The notes beneath the pieces are model-generated. The model was not told where the DNA came from. It saw nothing but the letters and a program-made list of their open reading frames with translations, and made no database searches. The position numbers were made by a program, and so were the translations under genes. From IMG/VR virus record IMGVR_UViG_3300035670_000360, positions 1-47,053 of that record: a stretch of DNA of 47,053 nt. One strand, 5' to 3'. The DNA is from a virus. Shown one piece after another: positions 5,024-47,053 of this stretch (position 1 is its first letter; each line of letters begins with the position of its first letter).

Positions 5024-6024
5024 TGAGTAACTTGTTTAAGCCAAGGGAATACTACAAGCCATTTGATTATCCTTGGGCATTCGACTACTACCGCAAGCAA
5101 AGCTCAGAGATGCACTGGGTACCAGAGGACGTTCCTCTTCACGAGGACATACGTGATTGGAACACTAAGCTATCCCCGGTGCAAAAGGAAGTAGTAACAC
5201 AGATCCTCAACCTGTTCACACAGAGTGACGTTGACGTAGGCGCTGCTTACTACGAAAAGTTCATCCCCATGTTCCCTGTGCCAGAGATACGCATGATGCT
5301 GGGGGCCTTTGCTAACATGGAGTCAGTACATCAACATGCGTACTCACACTTCACAGACACCATAGGACTGCCTGTATCGACGTATAAGGCGTTTTATGAG
5401 TATGAGGCTATGAGGGATAAGCATGACTACCTATCGTTGCTTACGAGTGATTATAGTGCGTCTAACGTGCTAAAGAATATAGCCATCTACTCTGCCTTCA
5501 CTGAGGGGATGCAGTTGTTCTCCTCGTTTGCTATCCTTCTGAAGTTCCCACATGAGGGGCTGATGAAAGGAATGGGTCAGATTGTTAGCTACAGTATCAA
5601 GGATGAGTCAGTTCACGTAGAGGGTATGATCCGCTTGTTCCACGAGGTGAAGAAGGAGAACATGGGAGCATGGGATGATAGCTGCAAGGAAGCTGTTAAG
5701 GATGCTGCTGAAGTGATGTGTAACCTTGAGCACCGATTTGTGGACAAGGTGTTCGAGATAGGAGACTTACCAAATCTAAGGAAGGGTGATGTTAAAAGAT
5801 ATAATATGTATATTGCTGACCGTCGTCTGCTTCAGCTTGGATTGGAGCCAATATTTGGGGTAAAAGACAACCCGCTTCCATTCATAAGTGAGGTTCTTGG
5901 GGTGGAATTTGCTGACTTCTTCAGCACAAGAGCCACTGCTTACATGAAAGGCGGGTTGAAGGGGAACCGTACTAGCGTAACCTTTCCTCCACCTGTTTCT
6001 CCAAGCGTAGTATATCCTTTTTAA
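5023..6024 (+). CDS. nrdB: Class I ribonucleotide reductase, small (beta) subunit
   Basis: This 333-residue ferritin-like protein carries the metal site and radical tyrosine for the NrdA partner. By eye, ligands match the E. coli set: Asp in QSDVDVG, Glu and His in MESVHQHAY, Glu in FTEGMQL and Glu/His in KDESVH. The Tyr of HQHAY sits where E. coli Tyr122 is, so it should be a tyrosyl-radical class Ia/b type. The last 53 bp overlap, on the opposite strand, the end of the leftward lysis-type gene. An AGGAGATATAC leader and TGATG coupling precede the start. Confidence 0.95.
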   Translation: MSNLFKPREYYKPFDYPWAFDYYRKQSSEMHWVPEDVPLHEDIRDWNTKLSPVQKEVVTQILNLFTQSDVDVGAAYYEKFIPMFPVPEIRMMLGAFANMESVHQHAYSHFTDTIGLPVSTYKAFYEYEAMRDKHDYLSLLTSDYSASNVLKNIAIYSAFTEGMQLFSSFAILLKFPHEGLMKGMGQIVSYSIKDESVHVEGMIRLFHEVKKENMGAWDDSCKEAVKDAAEVMCNLEHRFVDKVFEIGDLPNLRKGDVKRYNMYIADRRLLQLGLEPIFGVKDNPLPFISEVLGVEFADFFSTRATAYMKGGLKGNRTSVTFPPPVSPSVVYPF

Positions 6025-37052: not shown

Positions 37053-37612
37053 GTAAACTTGAGAGAGCATACATACCACTGGTACCATTCAGTGCGCTGA
37101 AGACTAAGCAATATATTGATGGCAAGTTGTACATCAAGGTTGATGTGTACTGGAACATACACAAACAGTGCTACTCCCTGCGACACAGAGGGAAGGTGGT
37201 AGCACACACCCAGTTCACTGAGTTGCGTGATGTGGAGTTCATTGTTAACCCGAGGGGGCGAGACCGTACCATACGTGAAGGTAAGAAGTATGTGCATGCC
37301 TTTGTACGTGGTTGGGTAGTTGTTGAACCAATGGAGTTCAGTTGGTGGGAAGACGTTCCGCAAGGGGAAGCATGGGACATAGCGTTTCTTGGGAGTACTA
37401 CAAAGTACACTGCAACGTACAGTGTGGAGTATAACCCAAGACTGCACAAGTCGTTCGTTACACAGCGTCTTGGTGGGCTAGCTCCGGTGTACTGGTCTGA
37501 AGAAGCGTACCTTACAACGTGGGAAGACTACCTCGATGATAGACACCCAAGGCTGTACGCATCAACAAACTTCCCGATTACTGAGGTGGACTATGAAGCT
37601 GAACCTGTTTAG
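37049..37612 (+). CDS. Conserved-looking phage protein (187 aa), unknown
   Basis: The sequence contains KQCYSLRHRGKVVAH and GRDRTIREGKKYVHAFVRG, a motif I associate with a recurrent uncharacterised phage domain (a basic beta-rich module). The C-terminal half is acidic/aromatic (WWEDVPQGEAWD; WEDYLDDRHPRLY). It lies between two translationally coupled neighbours in the early operon. No function assigned. Confidence 0.65.
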   Translation: MSKLERAYIPLVPFSALKTKQYIDGKLYIKVDVYWNIHKQCYSLRHRGKVVAHTQFTELRDVEFIVNPRGRDRTIREGKKYVHAFVRGWVVVEPMEFSWWEDVPQGEAWDIAFLGSTTKYTATYSVEYNPRLHKSFVTQRLGGLAPVYWSEEAYLTTWEDYLDDRHPRLYASTNFPITEVDYEAEPV

Positions 37613-38309
37613 TAAGGGTGAAACAAACGCGAAGCAACGCAAGGATGCAGGCACCCAGTCTTACATACTGTACATGGCACCTAGTGACAGTGCGGTACGT
37701 GGTACTAACCTGTGCCCATCTACAGTAGTGGACAAGTCATGCGTAAGCAGTTGCCTGTTCTACTGCGGACGTGGTGCATTCCCCACTGTGTACAATTCTA
37801 GGCTTACCAAGTCTCTCATGTTCATCAACGAGCGTGAGAGGTTTGAAGCATTCTACACAGCAGACCTGTACAACATTGATGATGTTGGGAAGCAACTTGG
37901 TACCAAGGTGGTAGCACGTAGCAATGGAACGTCTGACCTGAATTTCTTCAAGACCTTTGGCCTACATGCCAGCTACTTCCCCAACACCATACACCACGAG
38001 TACACCAAGGTATTCGGGTATCTACACAGTGATACTGGTGTACACTACACGTTCTCTGCTAGTGAGACTAACATCTATCAGCAGATACAGGCCTTGTGTG
38101 AGGGCTTTGGTGTAGCCAAGGTGTACCATGGTGAACTACCTGAGTCTGACTTTGTTGGTGGTAAAGAGTACCGTGTTATTGATGGAGACCTGTCAGACCT
38201 GAGGCCCATGGATAAGGCAGTACATGGTATCTCTCACACTGATGGGTACATAGTGGGGCTTCGGTTTAAGAAGCCGCGTTTTGGTATAGCTAAACTGGGA
38301 GAAAGATGA
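37593..38309 (+). CDS. Cys-rich early/middle phage protein (CPxxxxxxC family, DUF7227-like)
   Basis: Start ATG 37593, 20 bp inside the previous gene. The 238-residue protein has the hallmark cluster GTNLCPSTVVDKSCVSSCLF then YCGRGAFPTVYNSRLTKSLM, followed by VVARSNGTSDLNF, HHEYTKVFGYL, HYTFSASETN and VIDGDLSDLRPMD, the ordered motifs of a widespread phage family of unknown function. The Cys pattern could bind metal or a cluster. It resembles replication-region genes in other lytic phages. Confidence 0.75.
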   Translation: MKLNLFSKGETNAKQRKDAGTQSYILYMAPSDSAVRGTNLCPSTVVDKSCVSSCLFYCGRGAFPTVYNSRLTKSLMFINERERFEAFYTADLYNIDDVGKQLGTKVVARSNGTSDLNFFKTFGLHASYFPNTIHHEYTKVFGYLHSDTGVHYTFSASETNIYQQIQALCEGFGVAKVYHGELPESDFVGGKEYRVIDGDLSDLRPMDKAVHGISHTDGYIVGLRFKKPRFGIAKLGER

Positions 38310-38798: not shown

Positions 38799-38966
38799 AT
38801 GAGTACAGACATGGACAATTTGTTATATGGGATCTTCAACGAGGAAGATGATGAGACAATGGAACCAGACTTAGAGTTCCTTGATAGTGATGACGAGCAG
38901 ATGGTAGAGTGGGACGAGTTCATCCACGTACTTAATTCAATCTTTGATGACATAGGGGAAGAGTGA
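38799..38966 (+). CDS. Extremely acidic 55-residue protein (possible DNA mimic)
   Basis: ATG 38799 follows CAGGAGA. The 55 residues contain about 21 Asp/Glu and no Lys or Arg (for example NEEDDETMEPDLEFLDSDDE), with aromatic and aliphatic residues spaced as in amphipathic helices (WDEFIHVLNSIFDDIGEE). Such composition is typical of DNA-mimic inhibitors (Ocr, UGI, Arn) though it is much shorter than Ocr. Placement right after an origin-like segment and before small cassette genes suits an early anti-defence or replication-modulating role. No homology claimed. Confidence 0.7.
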   Translation: MSTDMDNLLYGIFNEEDDETMEPDLEFLDSDDEQMVEWDEFIHVLNSIFDDIGEE

Positions 38967-39169
38967 TGGGTATCGCAGACACGCTACTTGGTGGTCTTAT
39001 TGACCGTGTTGGTGAGTCCACACTGAATGAACTACTAGCACTACGGGAAGCTGTTGACTCAGCACTGCTATCACTAGCAGCAGGTGAGTCTGGGCACGCT
39101 GCTAAAACTCTGCTTACTGTAGCGTCACATGAGGCTGTTGACGAGTACTATAGAGTTCTCAACGAGTAA
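38966..39169 (+). CDS. Hypothetical helical protein (67 aa)
   Basis: Its ATG shares the A of the previous TGA (TGATG). The product is Leu/Ala-rich and helical (STLNELLALREAVDSALLSLA). No membrane span of full length and no motif recognised. The gap 39170-39249 that follows holds only a short CTGTGT-A-ACACAG dyad. Confidence 0.62.
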   Translation: MGIADTLLGGLIDRVGESTLNELLALREAVDSALLSLAAGESGHAAKTLLTVASHEAVDEYYRVLNE

Positions 39170-39249: not shown

Positions 39250-39477
39250 ATGTACGTTATAGCAACACATAGGTATGGCGCTATGGATTCTGACGAGTGC
39301 CTCTATTGGACAAATAGGGAGAAAGGGACAATTAGAATAGGCGACGCACTCTTTGGTGCCTTTGCCGTGCGGAACTTCTTAAACGCAACGAAGTTCTCAA
39401 ACTATGAGACCGCGAAAGCATCAGCAGATATTCTCACAAAGGCTGGTCATTTCTCTTTTCCAATAGAGGTGGAGTGA
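39250..39477 (+). CDS. Hypothetical small protein (75 aa), first of the cassette array
   Basis: ATG 39250 follows AGAGGTG. The protein (MYVIATHRYGAMDSDECLYW; GDALFGAFAVRNFLNATKFS) ends in IEVE, whose codons contain the SD of the next gene. No family recognised. Confidence 0.62.
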   Translation: MYVIATHRYGAMDSDECLYWTNREKGTIRIGDALFGAFAVRNFLNATKFSNYETAKASADILTKAGHFSFPIEVE

Positions 39478-39698
39478 TGGATATAGGATCAGAAATAATC
39501 AAATGTTACCACCGGCATATAGAGACGACCGGCAAATATCCAACTTTACTTAAGATAACCCACGATGCTTTGACAGAATTAAAAGCCGAGTATGATTTTT
39601 TGAAGTATACAAAATTCACCTTGGCAGATACCGGAGAAACTTTCTTTGGAATGAGAATCCGAGTTAATGACAGCGTCAATATGTTTGAGGTGGAGTGA
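39477..39698 (+). CDS. Small cassette protein (73 aa)
   Basis: Bounded by the shared junction on both sides. MDIGSEIIKCYHRHIETTGK then YPTLLKITHDALTELKAEYD and TLADTGETFFGMRIRVNDSV; an alpha/beta protein ending FEVE. It resembles generic small phage proteins that report a virion- or capsid-independent role; none assigned. Confidence 0.62.
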   Translation: MDIGSEIIKCYHRHIETTGKYPTLLKITHDALTELKAEYDFLKYTKFTLADTGETFFGMRIRVNDSVNMFEVE

Positions 39699-39856
39699 TG
39701 GATAAACACTGCAAAAGGTGCAAGGTGCATCACATTGCCGGACACCCGAAAGATAGCCCACTTGCACGAAAGTATAATGACTGGTGCTGCAAGTATGGCA
39801 TGACGGCAAAAAGAGCAATTGGTCACTGTAAGTTAAATAAAGGGAAGGTGGAGTGA
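39698..39856 (+). CDS. Cys/His-rich small cassette protein (52 aa)
   Basis: ATG 39698 overlaps the previous TGA. MDKHCKRCKVHHIAGHPKDS then KYNDWCCKYGMTAKRAIGHC: five Cys and several His in a basic small protein, likely a zinc-binding finger. It has the array junctions on both sides. Function unknown. Confidence 0.62.
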   Translation: MDKHCKRCKVHHIAGHPKDSPLARKYNDWCCKYGMTAKRAIGHCKLNKGKVE

Positions 39857-40149
39857 TGGATAACGAACAAATAACAGCGTTAGTTGCCAGATTGAAGATG
39901 GCCCATAGGCACGGAGCACTCGACTACGGCGATCTGTTCGAGATGTGTGAGGAAGCTGCCGAGACAATTGAAGCCCTCCGCAATCGCCTTGAGTGGCAGC
40001 CGATGGAGACGGCACCGCACGTGATGGACGATATAATAGTGCTGTGGAGATATGCCGACAACGCAACGTATTTTCTTGGGTCTGCGTGTAGTGCTGAGTG
40101 CGAGCACGGAGATATGGGTGTTTTTAATGGCTGGAGGTATGTGGAGTGA
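39856..40149 (+). CDS. WQPMETAP-motif protein (97 aa), DUF551-like
   Basis: N-terminal half is helical (TALVARLKMAHRHGALDYGD; MCEEAAETIEALRNRLE). The C-terminal half has LEWQPMETAPHVMDDIIVLW and ends GWRYVE, matching the short WQPIETAPKDG-type domain widespread in phages and prophages. A second copy is encoded at 40337. Function of the domain is unknown; possibly a binding module. Confidence 0.72.
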   Translation: MDNEQITALVARLKMAHRHGALDYGDLFEMCEEAAETIEALRNRLEWQPMETAPHVMDDIIVLWRYADNATYFLGSACSAECEHGDMGVFNGWRYVE

Positions 40150-40337
40150 TGGACTATATCAATGCGACATATAGAACCAAATACAGAATCGACTCAAGAG
40201 TCATCTACACGGGTGATGGGTACGCAAAGATCGGGACTGTGGTCGGAGCGCGTTCGGCTTATCTCCGCGTCCAGATGGACGGTGAAAAATCAATTGGACT
40301 TTACCACCCAACGTGGGAAATGAAGGCGGTGGAGTGA
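40149..40337 (+). CDS. Small cassette protein (62 aa)
   Basis: Between two copies of the shared junction. MDYINATYRTKYRIDSRVIY then GDGYAKIGTVVGARSAYLRV; the strand-rich middle suggests an SH3-like or KOW-like small barrel, which is only a fold impression. Ends KAVE. Confidence 0.62.
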   Translation: MDYINATYRTKYRIDSRVIYTGDGYAKIGTVVGARSAYLRVQMDGEKSIGLYHPTWEMKAVE

Positions 40338-40669
40338 TGGACAAATCAATAGAGTTCTTCAAGGGGATAATTGAATGCCGAACAACGTTCCGCGACGGCG
40401 ATCCTGCGTTAGAGGCATATAAAGAAGAGTGTCTTGCTGAGCTTGAAGCACTCCGCAAAAAGCTGGAGTGGCAGCCGATGGAAACAATCCCACATGACAA
40501 GTCTGTGCTTGTTAAATGTAAGGACGAAGACGAGGTAAGCGTAGGTTATGTGACGCGCAACGATGGTCGCGTCTACTTGCTAGCTGACGGTGAGTTTTGC
40601 AGCAACTACGACGGCGACGATATTTATGTTTTTGCATGCACATTATCAGGCTGGAGAGAGGTGGAGTGA
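40337..40669 (+). CDS. WQPMETIP-motif protein (110 aa), paralogue of the 39856 gene
   Basis: The start at 40337 follows the array junction; an upstream in-frame TTG/GTG would overlap it. It shares EALRKKLEWQPMETIPHDKS with the 39856 protein (EALRNRLEWQPMETAPHVMD) but its C-terminal half differs (VGYVTRNDGRVYLLADGEF) before the common GWREVE end. Two related genes in one array point to duplication and divergence or separate acquisition. Confidence 0.72.
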   Translation: MDKSIEFFKGIIECRTTFRDGDPALEAYKEECLAELEALRKKLEWQPMETIPHDKSVLVKCKDEDEVSVGYVTRNDGRVYLLADGEFCSNYDGDDIYVFACTLSGWREVE

Positions 40670-40866
40670 TGGACGTAACAACCGCCCCATACCGTGGATG
40701 CGAGGAGTACTCTGTGAGAATGATTGTCATGGGTAACGACGGGTATTGCAAAGAAGTTGAACAGTCTTATTACGCCCGAGGAAAGGCCGCGCACAAAAGA
40801 ATACAGACCTACATCGAACGGCATACGCCAGAGCTTGTTAGGGTTATTCGTGTCAGTTATGTGTGA
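40669..40866 (+). CDS. Small cassette protein (65 aa)
   Basis: MDVTTAPYRGCEEYSVRMIV then YYARGKAAHKRIQTYIERHT; a beta-alpha small protein. It begins at the shared junction but ends TGTGTGA, outside the Val-Glu pattern, so it is near the end of the uniform array. Confidence 0.62.
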   Translation: MDVTTAPYRGCEEYSVRMIVMGNDGYCKEVEQSYYARGKAAHKRIQTYIERHTPELVRVIRVSYV

Positions 40867-40878
40867 AGGAGTGGAATG

Positions 40879-41082
40879 ATGGACAAACCAAATCCCGGCA
40901 GTGATGAGGCAATAGAACAAGGATGCACATGTCCTGTCTTGGATAATGGGCATGGGCGAGGATACTTAGGGCAGGAGGGCGTGTTTGTTTACAACATTGA
41001 TTGCCCTGTTCACTGGCCCAGTGGGATACCAAGTGAAGCACAGGCTTTCAAGGAACTTGTTAGAATATTAAACGGAGGATAG
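40879..41082 (+). CDS. Small protein (67 aa) with Cys motif
   Basis: Start taken at the second of two ATGs (40879) by analogy to the Met-Asp starts and for better spacing to AAGGAG. MDKPNPGSDEAIEQGCTCPV then LDNGHGRGYLGQEGVFVYNI DCPVHW in two parts; GCTCP...DCPVHW resembles a family of short phage proteins with paired Cys and a CPVH end. Function unknown. Confidence 0.65.
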   Translation: MDKPNPGSDEAIEQGCTCPVLDNGHGRGYLGQEGVFVYNIDCPVHWPSGIPSEAQAFKELVRILNGG

Positions 41083-41462: not shown

Positions 41463-41621
41463 ATGTACGCTAAGATAGAAGGTATTATGGACGAGATATA
41501 CTTACTGCTACCAAGCAGGGTAGACAGTGATAACCCGGTACTCCTCACCAGCTCTGAGGTAGTACGATTGCAGTCACTGGTGAACGCACTGTACATCATC
41601 TGCTGCTCGGGTGAGCAATGA
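41463..41621 (+). CDS. Small protein (52 aa) coupled to the helicase gene
   Basis: ATG 41463 gives MYAKIEGIMDEIYLLLPSRV to IICCSGEQ, ending in TGA overlapping the primase-helicase ATG (ATGA). The helical sequence and the coupling support it as a real gene; role unknown. Confidence 0.55.
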   Translation: MYAKIEGIMDEIYLLLPSRVDSDNPVLLTSSEVVRLQSLVNALYIICCSGEQ

Positions 41622-43243
41622 GTACCCTAGAGAAAACACTTTGCCCAGAGTGTGGTGGTAACAACTTCCAGTTATTCAGCAACGATGACGGCACTATAAG
41701 TGGGCACTGCTTCACACCGGGCTGCGAGATAACCAGACAGAATATGAACGGAGTACCTATGGAAACAGATGTGGAACAAGAGCAAGACACTGGTATGTTC
41801 GACCAGTTACTTGCTGGGTTATCAGGGCTTAAGTTCAAAGGGTGGTCTGATCGTAAGATCCGGGCTGAGACTGACGAACACTTCGGTGTACGTACATCAT
41901 CAACAAAGCGGATCTATCCACGCACCAAGGACGGTGAGGTGGTGAGCTTCAAGCTCAGAGACTTACGACAGAAGGACTTTGTAGTACACCAGAAAGAGAA
42001 ACCGACAGACCTATTCGGTCAGGCTCAGGCACTCAAGGCAGACAAGCGTACCCTGTTTATCACCGAGGGGGAGGAGGATGCACTAGCCCTGTACCAGTGC
42101 CTTATGGATAAGAACCGTGGCACACAGTACGCTACTGAGTTCGCTGTCGTGTCATTGATCAACGGTGCGTCTAGTGTCAAGCGTGACCTGAACAATAACC
42201 TGAAGTTCCTTGATATGTTCAAGAAGGTTATCTGTGTGTTCGACAATGACAAGGCTGGTGAGGAAGCACTCAAGGCTGCACGTAATGTACTACCTAGCGT
42301 GGGTCATGTTGACATGCCACTTAAAGACCCATGTGACATGCTGCGTGAAGGCTTTGGTGGGCAGCTTGCTAACGACTGCCTGTTCAACCCTAAGTTTGAT
42401 AGGCCCAGTGAACTCATGACAGTCTCAGACTTGTATGACGAGGCTATGAAAGAGCCAGAGCGTGGACTGTCATGGCCGTGGCCTACGCTTACTAAGCTAA
42501 CCTATGGCATACGTAAGCGTGAACTACATGGGTTCGGTGCTGGTACTGGGTGCGGTAAGACTGAGGGGTTCAAGGAACTAGCACAGCACCTCATGTACGT
42601 ACACAAGAAGAAGGTAGGCCTTATCTTCCTTGAGGAACCTAATGCCAAGACACTGAAGGTTCTAGCAGGCAAGCGCAAGAACAAGAAGTTCCACTTACCC
42701 AAGGATGATGGTGACTGGACTACTGAGGAACTTAAGGATGCACTTGAGGAACTACGCAGGGATGATCTTGTCGTTATGTACGGACATAATGCCGGTAAGG
42801 ACTGGCCCTCTGTGAAGAAGGCGATACGGTGGATGGCTAACAATGACATTGAACACGTCATGTTGGATCACCTGACCGCCTTGATAGCGGAGGAACCAGA
42901 CGAAACCAAGGCGCTCAACCGTATCATGAAAGAGATGGCTGATATGGTACATGAGTTAGGGATAACAATCTACTACATTAGCCACTTGTCAACACCAAGT
43001 GGTAAACCACATGAGGAGGGTGGCCATGTATCACTCAGCCAGTTTCGAGGGTCTCGTGCTATTGGGTATTGGACTAACTACGCCTTTGGGTACGAGAGGA
43101 ACCAACTTGCGGAAGATGAAGACGAACGACACACCACTACCTTCAGGGTTCTCAAGGATCGTGAGTACGGGTTGTCAACAGGTGCAACATTCAGACTTAG
43201 ATTTGATCACAACACAGGCCGATGGCTTGAAGTAGGAGAGTAG
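41618..43243 (+). CDS. Primase-helicase (T7 gp4-like)
   Basis: This 541-residue protein unwinds DNA and makes primers at the fork. An N-terminal zinc finger is visible (CPECGGNNFQLF ... HCFTPGCE), followed by a Toprim-type primase (RTLFITEGEEDALAL; CVFDNDKAGEEALKA) and a RecA-type helicase with Walker A GAGTGCGKTEGFKE at about 300 and Walker B HVMLDHLTALI. A C-terminal arginine-finger region follows. Length and order match T7 gp4 (566). It is coupled to the preceding 52-residue ORF. Confidence 0.95.
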   Translation: MSTLEKTLCPECGGNNFQLFSNDDGTISGHCFTPGCEITRQNMNGVPMETDVEQEQDTGMFDQLLAGLSGLKFKGWSDRKIRAETDEHFGVRTSSTKRIYPRTKDGEVVSFKLRDLRQKDFVVHQKEKPTDLFGQAQALKADKRTLFITEGEEDALALYQCLMDKNRGTQYATEFAVVSLINGASSVKRDLNNNLKFLDMFKKVICVFDNDKAGEEALKAARNVLPSVGHVDMPLKDPCDMLREGFGGQLANDCLFNPKFDRPSELMTVSDLYDEAMKEPERGLSWPWPTLTKLTYGIRKRELHGFGAGTGCGKTEGFKELAQHLMYVHKKKVGLIFLEEPNAKTLKVLAGKRKNKKFHLPKDDGDWTTEELKDALEELRRDDLVVMYGHNAGKDWPSVKKAIRWMANNDIEHVMLDHLTALIAEEPDETKALNRIMKEMADMVHELGITIYYISHLSTPSGKPHEEGGHVSLSQFRGSRAIGYWTNYAFGYERNQLAEDEDERHTTTFRVLKDREYGLSTGATFRLRFDHNTGRWLEVGE

Positions 43244-46768: not shown

Positions 46769-47053
46769 TGTTATAGTCTACCAGTGCGCTTTCGCTAGTC
46801 AGGGCGTTACGTATCTCCAGTTGGCAGAGGATTCTGAGGTGATTAACTTCACCTCGGAGTTCTTTCCAGAAGCTACAACAGAACTCCACTGGACTGCCAG
46901 CGTAGGCAACCTGCACACGTACATTGACATGACAGTTGAGGGTATCCTCAGGGCTGTCAAAGCCACAGACCACAAGTGCTACCTAACTGGAACTGGTAAC
47001 TTCAGGGAAAAGGTTGCTACTTGGGGTAAGTACAAGGGTGGTAGGGGTGCTAA
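46719..47053 (+). CDS. 5'-3' exonuclease (T7 gp6/FEN-like), N-terminal part, cut by contig end
   Basis: GTG 46719 follows TAGGAGAGA and a stop codon just before, so it is the best start. The product begins MAGNRKNYERIALIDCDVIV, with the IDCD metal motif of FEN-type nucleases, and runs into the window end. It is the missing 5' part of the gene at 1-713 and overlaps it as a second, slightly different allele from 46792 on. Confidence 0.9.
   Translation, partial: MAGNRKNYERIALIDCDVIVYQCAFASQGVTYLQLAEDSEVINFTSEFFPEATTELHWTASVGNLHTYIDMTVEGILRAVKATDHKCYLTGTGNFREKVATWGKYKGGRGA
46792..47053. repeat. Imperfect terminal repeat, right copy (pairs with 1-262)
   Basis: Ungapped match to 1-262 with 9 substitutions, all after the first 121 bases and eight of nine silent. 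See the left copy for interpretation. Confidence 0.9.

Follow-up and report, generated by a model that had tools for sequence, protein, structure and literature searches.

A repeated stop/Shine-Dalgarno/start joint links small genes in a Zobellviridae-like phage and probably marks an array of exchangeable accessory cassettes

How phages gain and lose small accessory genes singly, without breaking their expression, is an old question. It is raised in a specific form by a run of small genes in a virus record of 47,053 bases (the whole of this stretch is called the window), where almost the same few bases lie at one gene boundary after another. Is this repeated sequence simply a good coupler of translation, or is it also where genes are exchanged? 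The original prediction was the latter: a homology block allowing accessory genes to be swapped one at a time, as a cassette platform without an integrase.

The repeat is clear. With up to three mismatches allowed, the 16-base sequence GAGGTGGAGTGATGGA is found seven times in the run and nowhere else in the window (0.55 expected), which confirms a repeated junction of stop, Shine-Dalgarno sequence and start at this place (Table 1). Three copies are exact and the remaining ones carry one, one, two and three mismatches. The count first given, six copies plus one degenerate copy, therefore stands for the 13-base core, GTGGAGTGATGGA, which is exact at six joints (about 0.002 expected) and has one mismatch at the seventh, but not for the 16-mer that had been quoted. 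Every copy is on the plus strand, and all are confined to 39.47-40.88 kb. In frame, the joint reads GTG GAG TGA overlapping ATG GAY, so that the upstream protein ends Val-Glu-stop; the stop and the next ATG overlap by one base (TGATG) at six consecutive boundaries. The Shine-Dalgarno sequence, GAGGTG/GGAG, lies inside the last codons of the upstream gene, and a GTG three bases 5' of each ATG could serve as an alternative start, giving a four-base overlap. As first noted, Met-Asp opens all seven genes 3' of joints; the Val-Glu ending also noted holds for the genes 5' of the six good copies and fails at the seventh. That joint is unfused: gene 7 finishes with VSYV*, its stop preceding the next start by 12 bases.

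Table 1. Genes and joints of the array and neighbouring features in the window
Feature	Position	Strand	Start of 13-base core	Remarks
Weak joint-like boundary, GAAGAGTGATGGG	38958-38970	+		one gene upstream of array
Gene 1, 75 aa	39250-39477	+		ORF; head of array; own Shine-Dalgarno sequence; end ...IEVE*
Joint 1	39466-39481	+	39469	GAGGTGGAGTGATGGA exact
Cassette gene 2, 73 aa	39477-39698	+		ORF; 38% G+C
Joint 2	39687-39702	+	39690	16-mer exact
Cassette gene 3, 52 aa	39698-39856	+		ORF; Cys/His-rich
Joint 3	39845-39860	+	39848	16-mer with 1 mismatch, core exact
Cassette gene 4, 97 aa	39856-40149	+		paralogue of gene 6
Joint 4	40138-40153	+	40141	16-mer with 2 mismatches, core exact
Cassette gene 5, 62 aa	40149-40337	+		ORF; phrog_2730; homologues in unrelated phages
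Joint 5	40326-40341	+	40329	16-mer with 1 mismatch, core exact
Cassette gene 6, 110 aa	40337-40669	+		paralogue of gene 4
Joint 6	40658-40673	+	40661	16-mer exact
Cassette gene 7, 65 aa	40669-40866	+		ORF; end VSYV*, not Val-Glu
Joint 7	40868-40883	+	40871	degenerate; core with one mismatch; upstream stop unfused
Cassette gene 8, 67 aa	40879-41082	+		ORF; last in array; start 40876 or 40879
T7-type primase/helicase	41618-43243

A 262-nt repeat at the two ends of the record (1-262 and 46792-47053, 96.6% identity) indicates that it is approximately a complete genome, probably one stemming from a mixed population. Its TerL is closest to those of ICP2-like and other Vibrio phages and of oyster phages (43-47%), its helicase matches those of Vibrio zobellviruses at 36-38% and that of an unclassified podovirus at 41%, and PolA and endonuclease I are also encoded. 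From the kinship of its TerL, T7-type primase/helicase and polymerase, the phage is a Zobellviridae-like podovirus. The array lies a little 5' of the helicase gene, and Vibrio zobellviruses have a run of small genes at the equivalent place. Shortly upstream of the array is a GP88-family gene (37536-38309; PF17338, E 4e-14).

We scored how alike the boundaries within such a run are, leaving out the ATG. Those of the window array agree at 12.8 of 19 positions, against 5.0-5.8 of 19 at the same place in the zobellvirus relatives, which makes the joint special to the window lineage among the relatives compared. On the same measure the nin region of lambda scores 6.8 of 19, and L113, an array from another phage described below, 16.4 of 19. 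Searches of phages for closer relatives found none with the array by blastn, with gene 6 alone, with an alignment of genes 4 and 6, or with the helicase as a single query; an alignment of helicases gave a best match of 48%, in fragments whose boundaries carry no repeated joint. Gene 1 gave no protein-family match.

The array genes had been described as unrelated small proteins, and they do lack mutual similarity, except that genes 4 and 6 are paralogues (37% protein identity, E 1e-10; 84% DNA identity over 43 nt) with their joint and 3' end in common and cassette 5 between them. Such a pair is what would be expected if one gene and its ends had been duplicated in tandem again and again, the coding parts diverging and the joint surviving as a conserved remnant. 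As an account of the whole array we find this very improbable, given that the other genes are mutually dissimilar, that gene 5 is a member of a different family, one with representatives in other phages, and that cassettes of different families are exchanged in the phages discussed below. The homology of cassette 5 in unrelated phages spans Met1 to residue 59-62. Duplicates flanking cassette 5, and the wide range of phages in which cassette 5 is found, are consistent with a cassette model. Homologues of gene 5 occur in Pseudomonas, Sinorhizobium and Proteus phages and in a cyanophage, some of them near an integrase or in an early region. The gene-to-gene variation in base composition that had been pointed out did not reach significance across the seven genes (chi2 11.1, 7 df, p 0.13), with gene 2 the sole outlier.

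A scan with the 16-mer gave at least 120 loci, whose boundaries were then clustered within each locus. Several of these loci are arrays, foremost L113 with five joint copies. In the array phages the joint extends to 20 bases, GAAAGYGAGGTGGARTGATG, and unrelated proteins end there in -(K)ESEVE. Exact copies of the 20-mer turned up in 72 viral-contig stretches and in 8 stretches from bacterial genome contigs, where by our own estimate chance would give about 0.3 and about 2. When 25 records were searched whole, the copies within each record all lay in one orientation and mostly in one cluster, and a reversed control pattern gave a single match. The joints also tend to follow one another: 17 of 48 joints are followed by a gene whose end is again the joint (at least 15 of 20 positions), as against 87 of 1939 among all gene ends. 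These joint phages have no array gene in common with the window, and their TerL similarity to it is weak at most; the TerL of L113 is 31-34% identical to those of known phages. Since no array gene is common to both, the core that the window and the joint phages share could be convergent. The extended joint is also present in contigs L281-L288, which belong to genomes of Kiritimatiellae, Lentisphaerae, Clostridia and Eggerthellaceae; several of these genomes stem from animal guts. The matches hint that prophages are involved and suggest which hosts the phages may have. Just 5' of the L113 array, at 5288-5473, a small ORF holds a short in-frame tandem repeat (GSFIFKWP), and similar DNA lies near several arrays. 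The L113 array is also preceded by a GP88 look-alike (judged by sequence likeness, not by Pfam); GP88 as a common upstream gene of arrays was rejected, the family being absent from the other joint phages searched.

When the joint phages were compared all against all by blastn, their homologous blocks extended from joint to joint. For blocks of at least 80% identity, starts cluster at -4 to +6 and ends at +18 to +25 of the joint, and 29 of 59 block ends fall in the joint zone where 8.0 were expected (p about 6e-11); the joint is itself conserved, so a crossover can be assigned to the joint as a whole but to no narrower position. When all blocks were counted under looser terms, ends at joints outnumbered those at other gene boundaries less strongly, as weakly similar alignments end anywhere. 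We then compared the neighbours of homologous small genes. Where both phages have a joint at the boundary, the neighbour beyond it differed in 48 of 50 comparisons, the two exceptions coming from one closely similar pair (L232/L261), while across ordinary tight boundaries it differed in 49-50 of 102-103 (Fisher p about 6e-10). The contrast holds within 2 kb of the joint (p 1e-6), for tight overlaps (p 2e-6 or less) and among pairs more than 80% identical (p 1e-6 to 7e-5), and p stays below 1e-4 at every identity cut-off tried; the compared pairs are not independent, so these values overstate the certainty, although the direction is consistent across families. The phages had been gathered by searching for the joint and the controls were boundaries in the same contigs, which reduces the effect of that selection but does not wholly remove it. 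In five phages, the right-hand neighbour of one cassette family is different each time; another family has four left neighbours in four phages.

Individual pairs show what such changes look like. In L028 and L246 the left flanks are 92% identical up to a joint and the right flanks 92% identical from the next one, with an 85-aa cassette between them in one phage and an unrelated 48-aa cassette in the other. A rare joint variant, GAGGTCGTG, lies to the left of the cassette in L028 and to the right in L246, which would be expected if each cassette had come with one consensus joint and settled beside an older variant joint; we take this as suggestive only. L022 and L259 have 94% identical flanks on either side of one L259 joint, and L022 has two extra cassettes there, a clean insertion or deletion at the joint. 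The flanks of L065 and L296 (95.5% and 96.8%) enclose arrays without any DNA match, and L113 and L297 (flanks 96.4% and 87.9%) have one whole cassette in common. L291 and L292 carry a cassette that is 97.2% identical on cores of 66-74% identity. In the stretches compared, L094 has one cassette in common with L113 (90%), one with L289 (85%), and nothing else. The sharing seen in L291/L292 and L094, together with events of the L028/L246 type, indicates that cassettes move singly between both related and unrelated phages. Near-identical arrays recovered from separate metagenomes (L113/L276, 99.4%; L065/L070; L251/L267) argue against chance assembly chimeras. These genome comparisons show that unrelated phages with the extended form exchange single cassettes and that the breakpoints lie at the joint. 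Gene content that changes between junctions, with breakpoints at the junction, had been predicted, and in these phages, whose joint is nearly the same, the agreement is strong; a fixed gene order without such breakpoints, which would have spoken for the opposite, is contradicted there.

Breakpoints at joints do not by themselves separate exchange from translation. The joint might be nothing but a favoured coupler, reselected at each boundary and without any role in exchange, with breakpoints falling there since exchange within a gene is lethal. Codon use in the joint phages was read from gene ends chosen by protein (-SEVx), with the one ascertained copy per locus dropped. Where Glu is present it is GAA in 27 of 27 (background 0.59), and the serine codon is AGY in 33 of 34 (background 0.37), the exception, TCT, being a chance match; GAG is found in 33 of 34 and GTG in 29 of 34. 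The GAA and AGY positions lie outside the Shine-Dalgarno sequence, so the freezing of these synonymous codons points to conservation at the nucleotide level over more than the ribosome-binding site, and an -ESEVE tail kept as a protein-level tag can be rejected on the same ground. Judged from codon use, a joint that was inherited in common or homogenised is more likely than one produced by selecting Shine-Dalgarno sequences independently. Selection for coupled translation can still explain what the joint contains, and a purely translational role would fit the Shine-Dalgarno sequence and stop/start overlap in every good copy, the GGAGTGATGG-type joints of several unrelated phages without common genes, and the frequency with which boundaries other than joints are breakpoints, in about half of comparisons. 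It fits less well with window copies that are identical beyond what a Shine-Dalgarno sequence needs (fixed spacing, flanking GT and GGA), with the frozen GAAAGY kept 5' of it in the joint phages, with joints that break far more often than other tight boundaries of the same contigs, or with zobellvirus relatives and lambda nin that couple small genes without a common joint. We consider translation alone unlikely.

A defined sequence in one orientation, with turnover of single cassettes, might also suggest that the joint is the target of a still unrecognised site-specific enzyme, encoded by phage or host, much as happens in integrons. No integrase was recognised among the ORFs surrounding the window array, and the array genes gave no integrase match. 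The window joints have no hairpin or inverted repeat and fold no better than shuffled sequences, and the joint tolerates changes at many positions. The chance of such an enzyme seems to us slight. RecT was found in 1 and ERF in 0 of the 19 records searched, and the window array has no terminator-like sites and promoter-like sites only at chance level. That the platform works without an integrase thus fits, with no hairpin at the joint and the sought recombinases absent from nearly all records.

The reading we prefer, to which we would give a probability of roughly two in three, is that accessory gene cassettes, coupled in translation, are arrayed in this segment and that their joint provides homology for exchange, with no dedicated integrase. 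Each joint would combine the last bases of a gene, the ribosome-binding site for the gene that follows and the TGATG overlap of stop and start, with the same sequence at every boundary. Insertion, loss, replacement or duplication of any cassette with joint ends would then be possible at any joint, and translation of its neighbours would not be harmed. The identical 13-20 bases would act as short homology for recombination between phage genomes in mixed infections, no dedicated integrase being needed, and recombination at the joints may be of the general or the annealing type, during co-infection. By analogy, the window array would work like the arrays of the unrelated joint phages, and the joint is presumably recombining homology rather than a passive scar; at 13-16 bases in the window, against 20 in the extended form, it is short for ordinary homologous recombination. 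The cassettes probably have accessory functions, and those sampled encode small proteins with no assigned function. The predicted homology block for one-at-a-time exchange has thus gained observed turnover at joints in unrelated joint phages, and its role as homology is what we infer. More tentatively, and at somewhat less than an even chance, a universal stop/Shine-Dalgarno/start joint of about 13-20 bp may be a plug-in site for single accessory genes in many unrelated phages, with a cassette pool extending across groups. If so, it would be an integrase-free counterpart of the integron, with a single set of bases acting at once as gene end, ribosome-binding site, start and homology for recombination.

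The joint array matches none of the compared phage systems fully. In lambdoid phages, short conserved boundary sequences at module edges were proposed as sites of reassortment by homologous recombination, as summarised in PMC3029335 (refs 21-22), although shared homology cannot be found at most mosaic boundaries (PMC3029335). The window joint is likewise a short conserved sequence at gene boundaries, and it is exactly where gene content changes in the other joint phages. In the original lambdoid work different boundaries reportedly carry different sequences, whereas in the window one sequence lies at every boundary, any cassette would fit any position, and the joint includes stop, Shine-Dalgarno sequence and start. 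The lambda nin region is described in PMC8022706 as tightly packed accessory genes with overlapping stop and start (ATGA) whose content varies between phages; the window also chains consecutive small genes by stop/start overlap, with TGATG six times, but its repeated joint has no equivalent at the nin boundaries. Cluster K mycobacteriophages have the 13-bp SAS, GGGATAGGAGCCC, which contains a Shine-Dalgarno sequence, typically lies 3-7 bp before the start, and precedes many genes of different families, nearly always in one orientation and in the right half of the genome (PMC3203893). It is conserved beyond its pairing with rRNA, and a role in translation initiation, not as a cassette joint, was suggested (PMC3203893). 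The window has no match to it with up to two mismatches, and the joint differs in taking in stop and start and in running in tandem. The PeSLs of T4-like phages, a promoter and stem-loop between accessory genes, are credited with gene shuffling (Arbiol 2010 and Comeau 2014, as cited in PMC4503421). They too are a single motif repeated between genes, but the joint lacks a stem-loop, terminator, promoter enrichment and intergenic space. Mobile integrons resemble the array in their head-to-tail small genes, common boundary site and single gain and loss, and differ in having an integrase and an attC-like folded inverted repeat, neither of which was seen here. Among open-access papers we found no report of such a joint array. 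With one defined sequence at every boundary, and cassettes that in other phages change exactly there, the old question of single gain and loss becomes testable, and the joint offers a practical query with which to find pools of accessory phage genes, almost none of which has an assigned function so far.

Shorter runs occur as well. Scans for paired window-type joints at set spacing found runs of two or three joints in L219 (the same as L214), L301 and L302, while L212, L213 and L303 were rejected as chance or coding repeats. Joints of the GGAGTGATGG type lie on the minus strand of L302 (671, 835), in L219 (741, 938, 1135), and in three copies on the minus strands of L054 (8134, 8508, 8885) and L101 (2003, 2224, 2427); some have upstream extensions of their own, such as CCCGCRAAMCCGAGGAGGAGTGATGGA in L302. 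Joint arrays built on other sequences may exist: L094 carries on its minus strand, at 387, 572 and 934 of the same contig, a second set of repeated boundaries with a different sequence, AGGAGAACTAGAAATGA, and L023 has three copies of AGGTGATATATGA.
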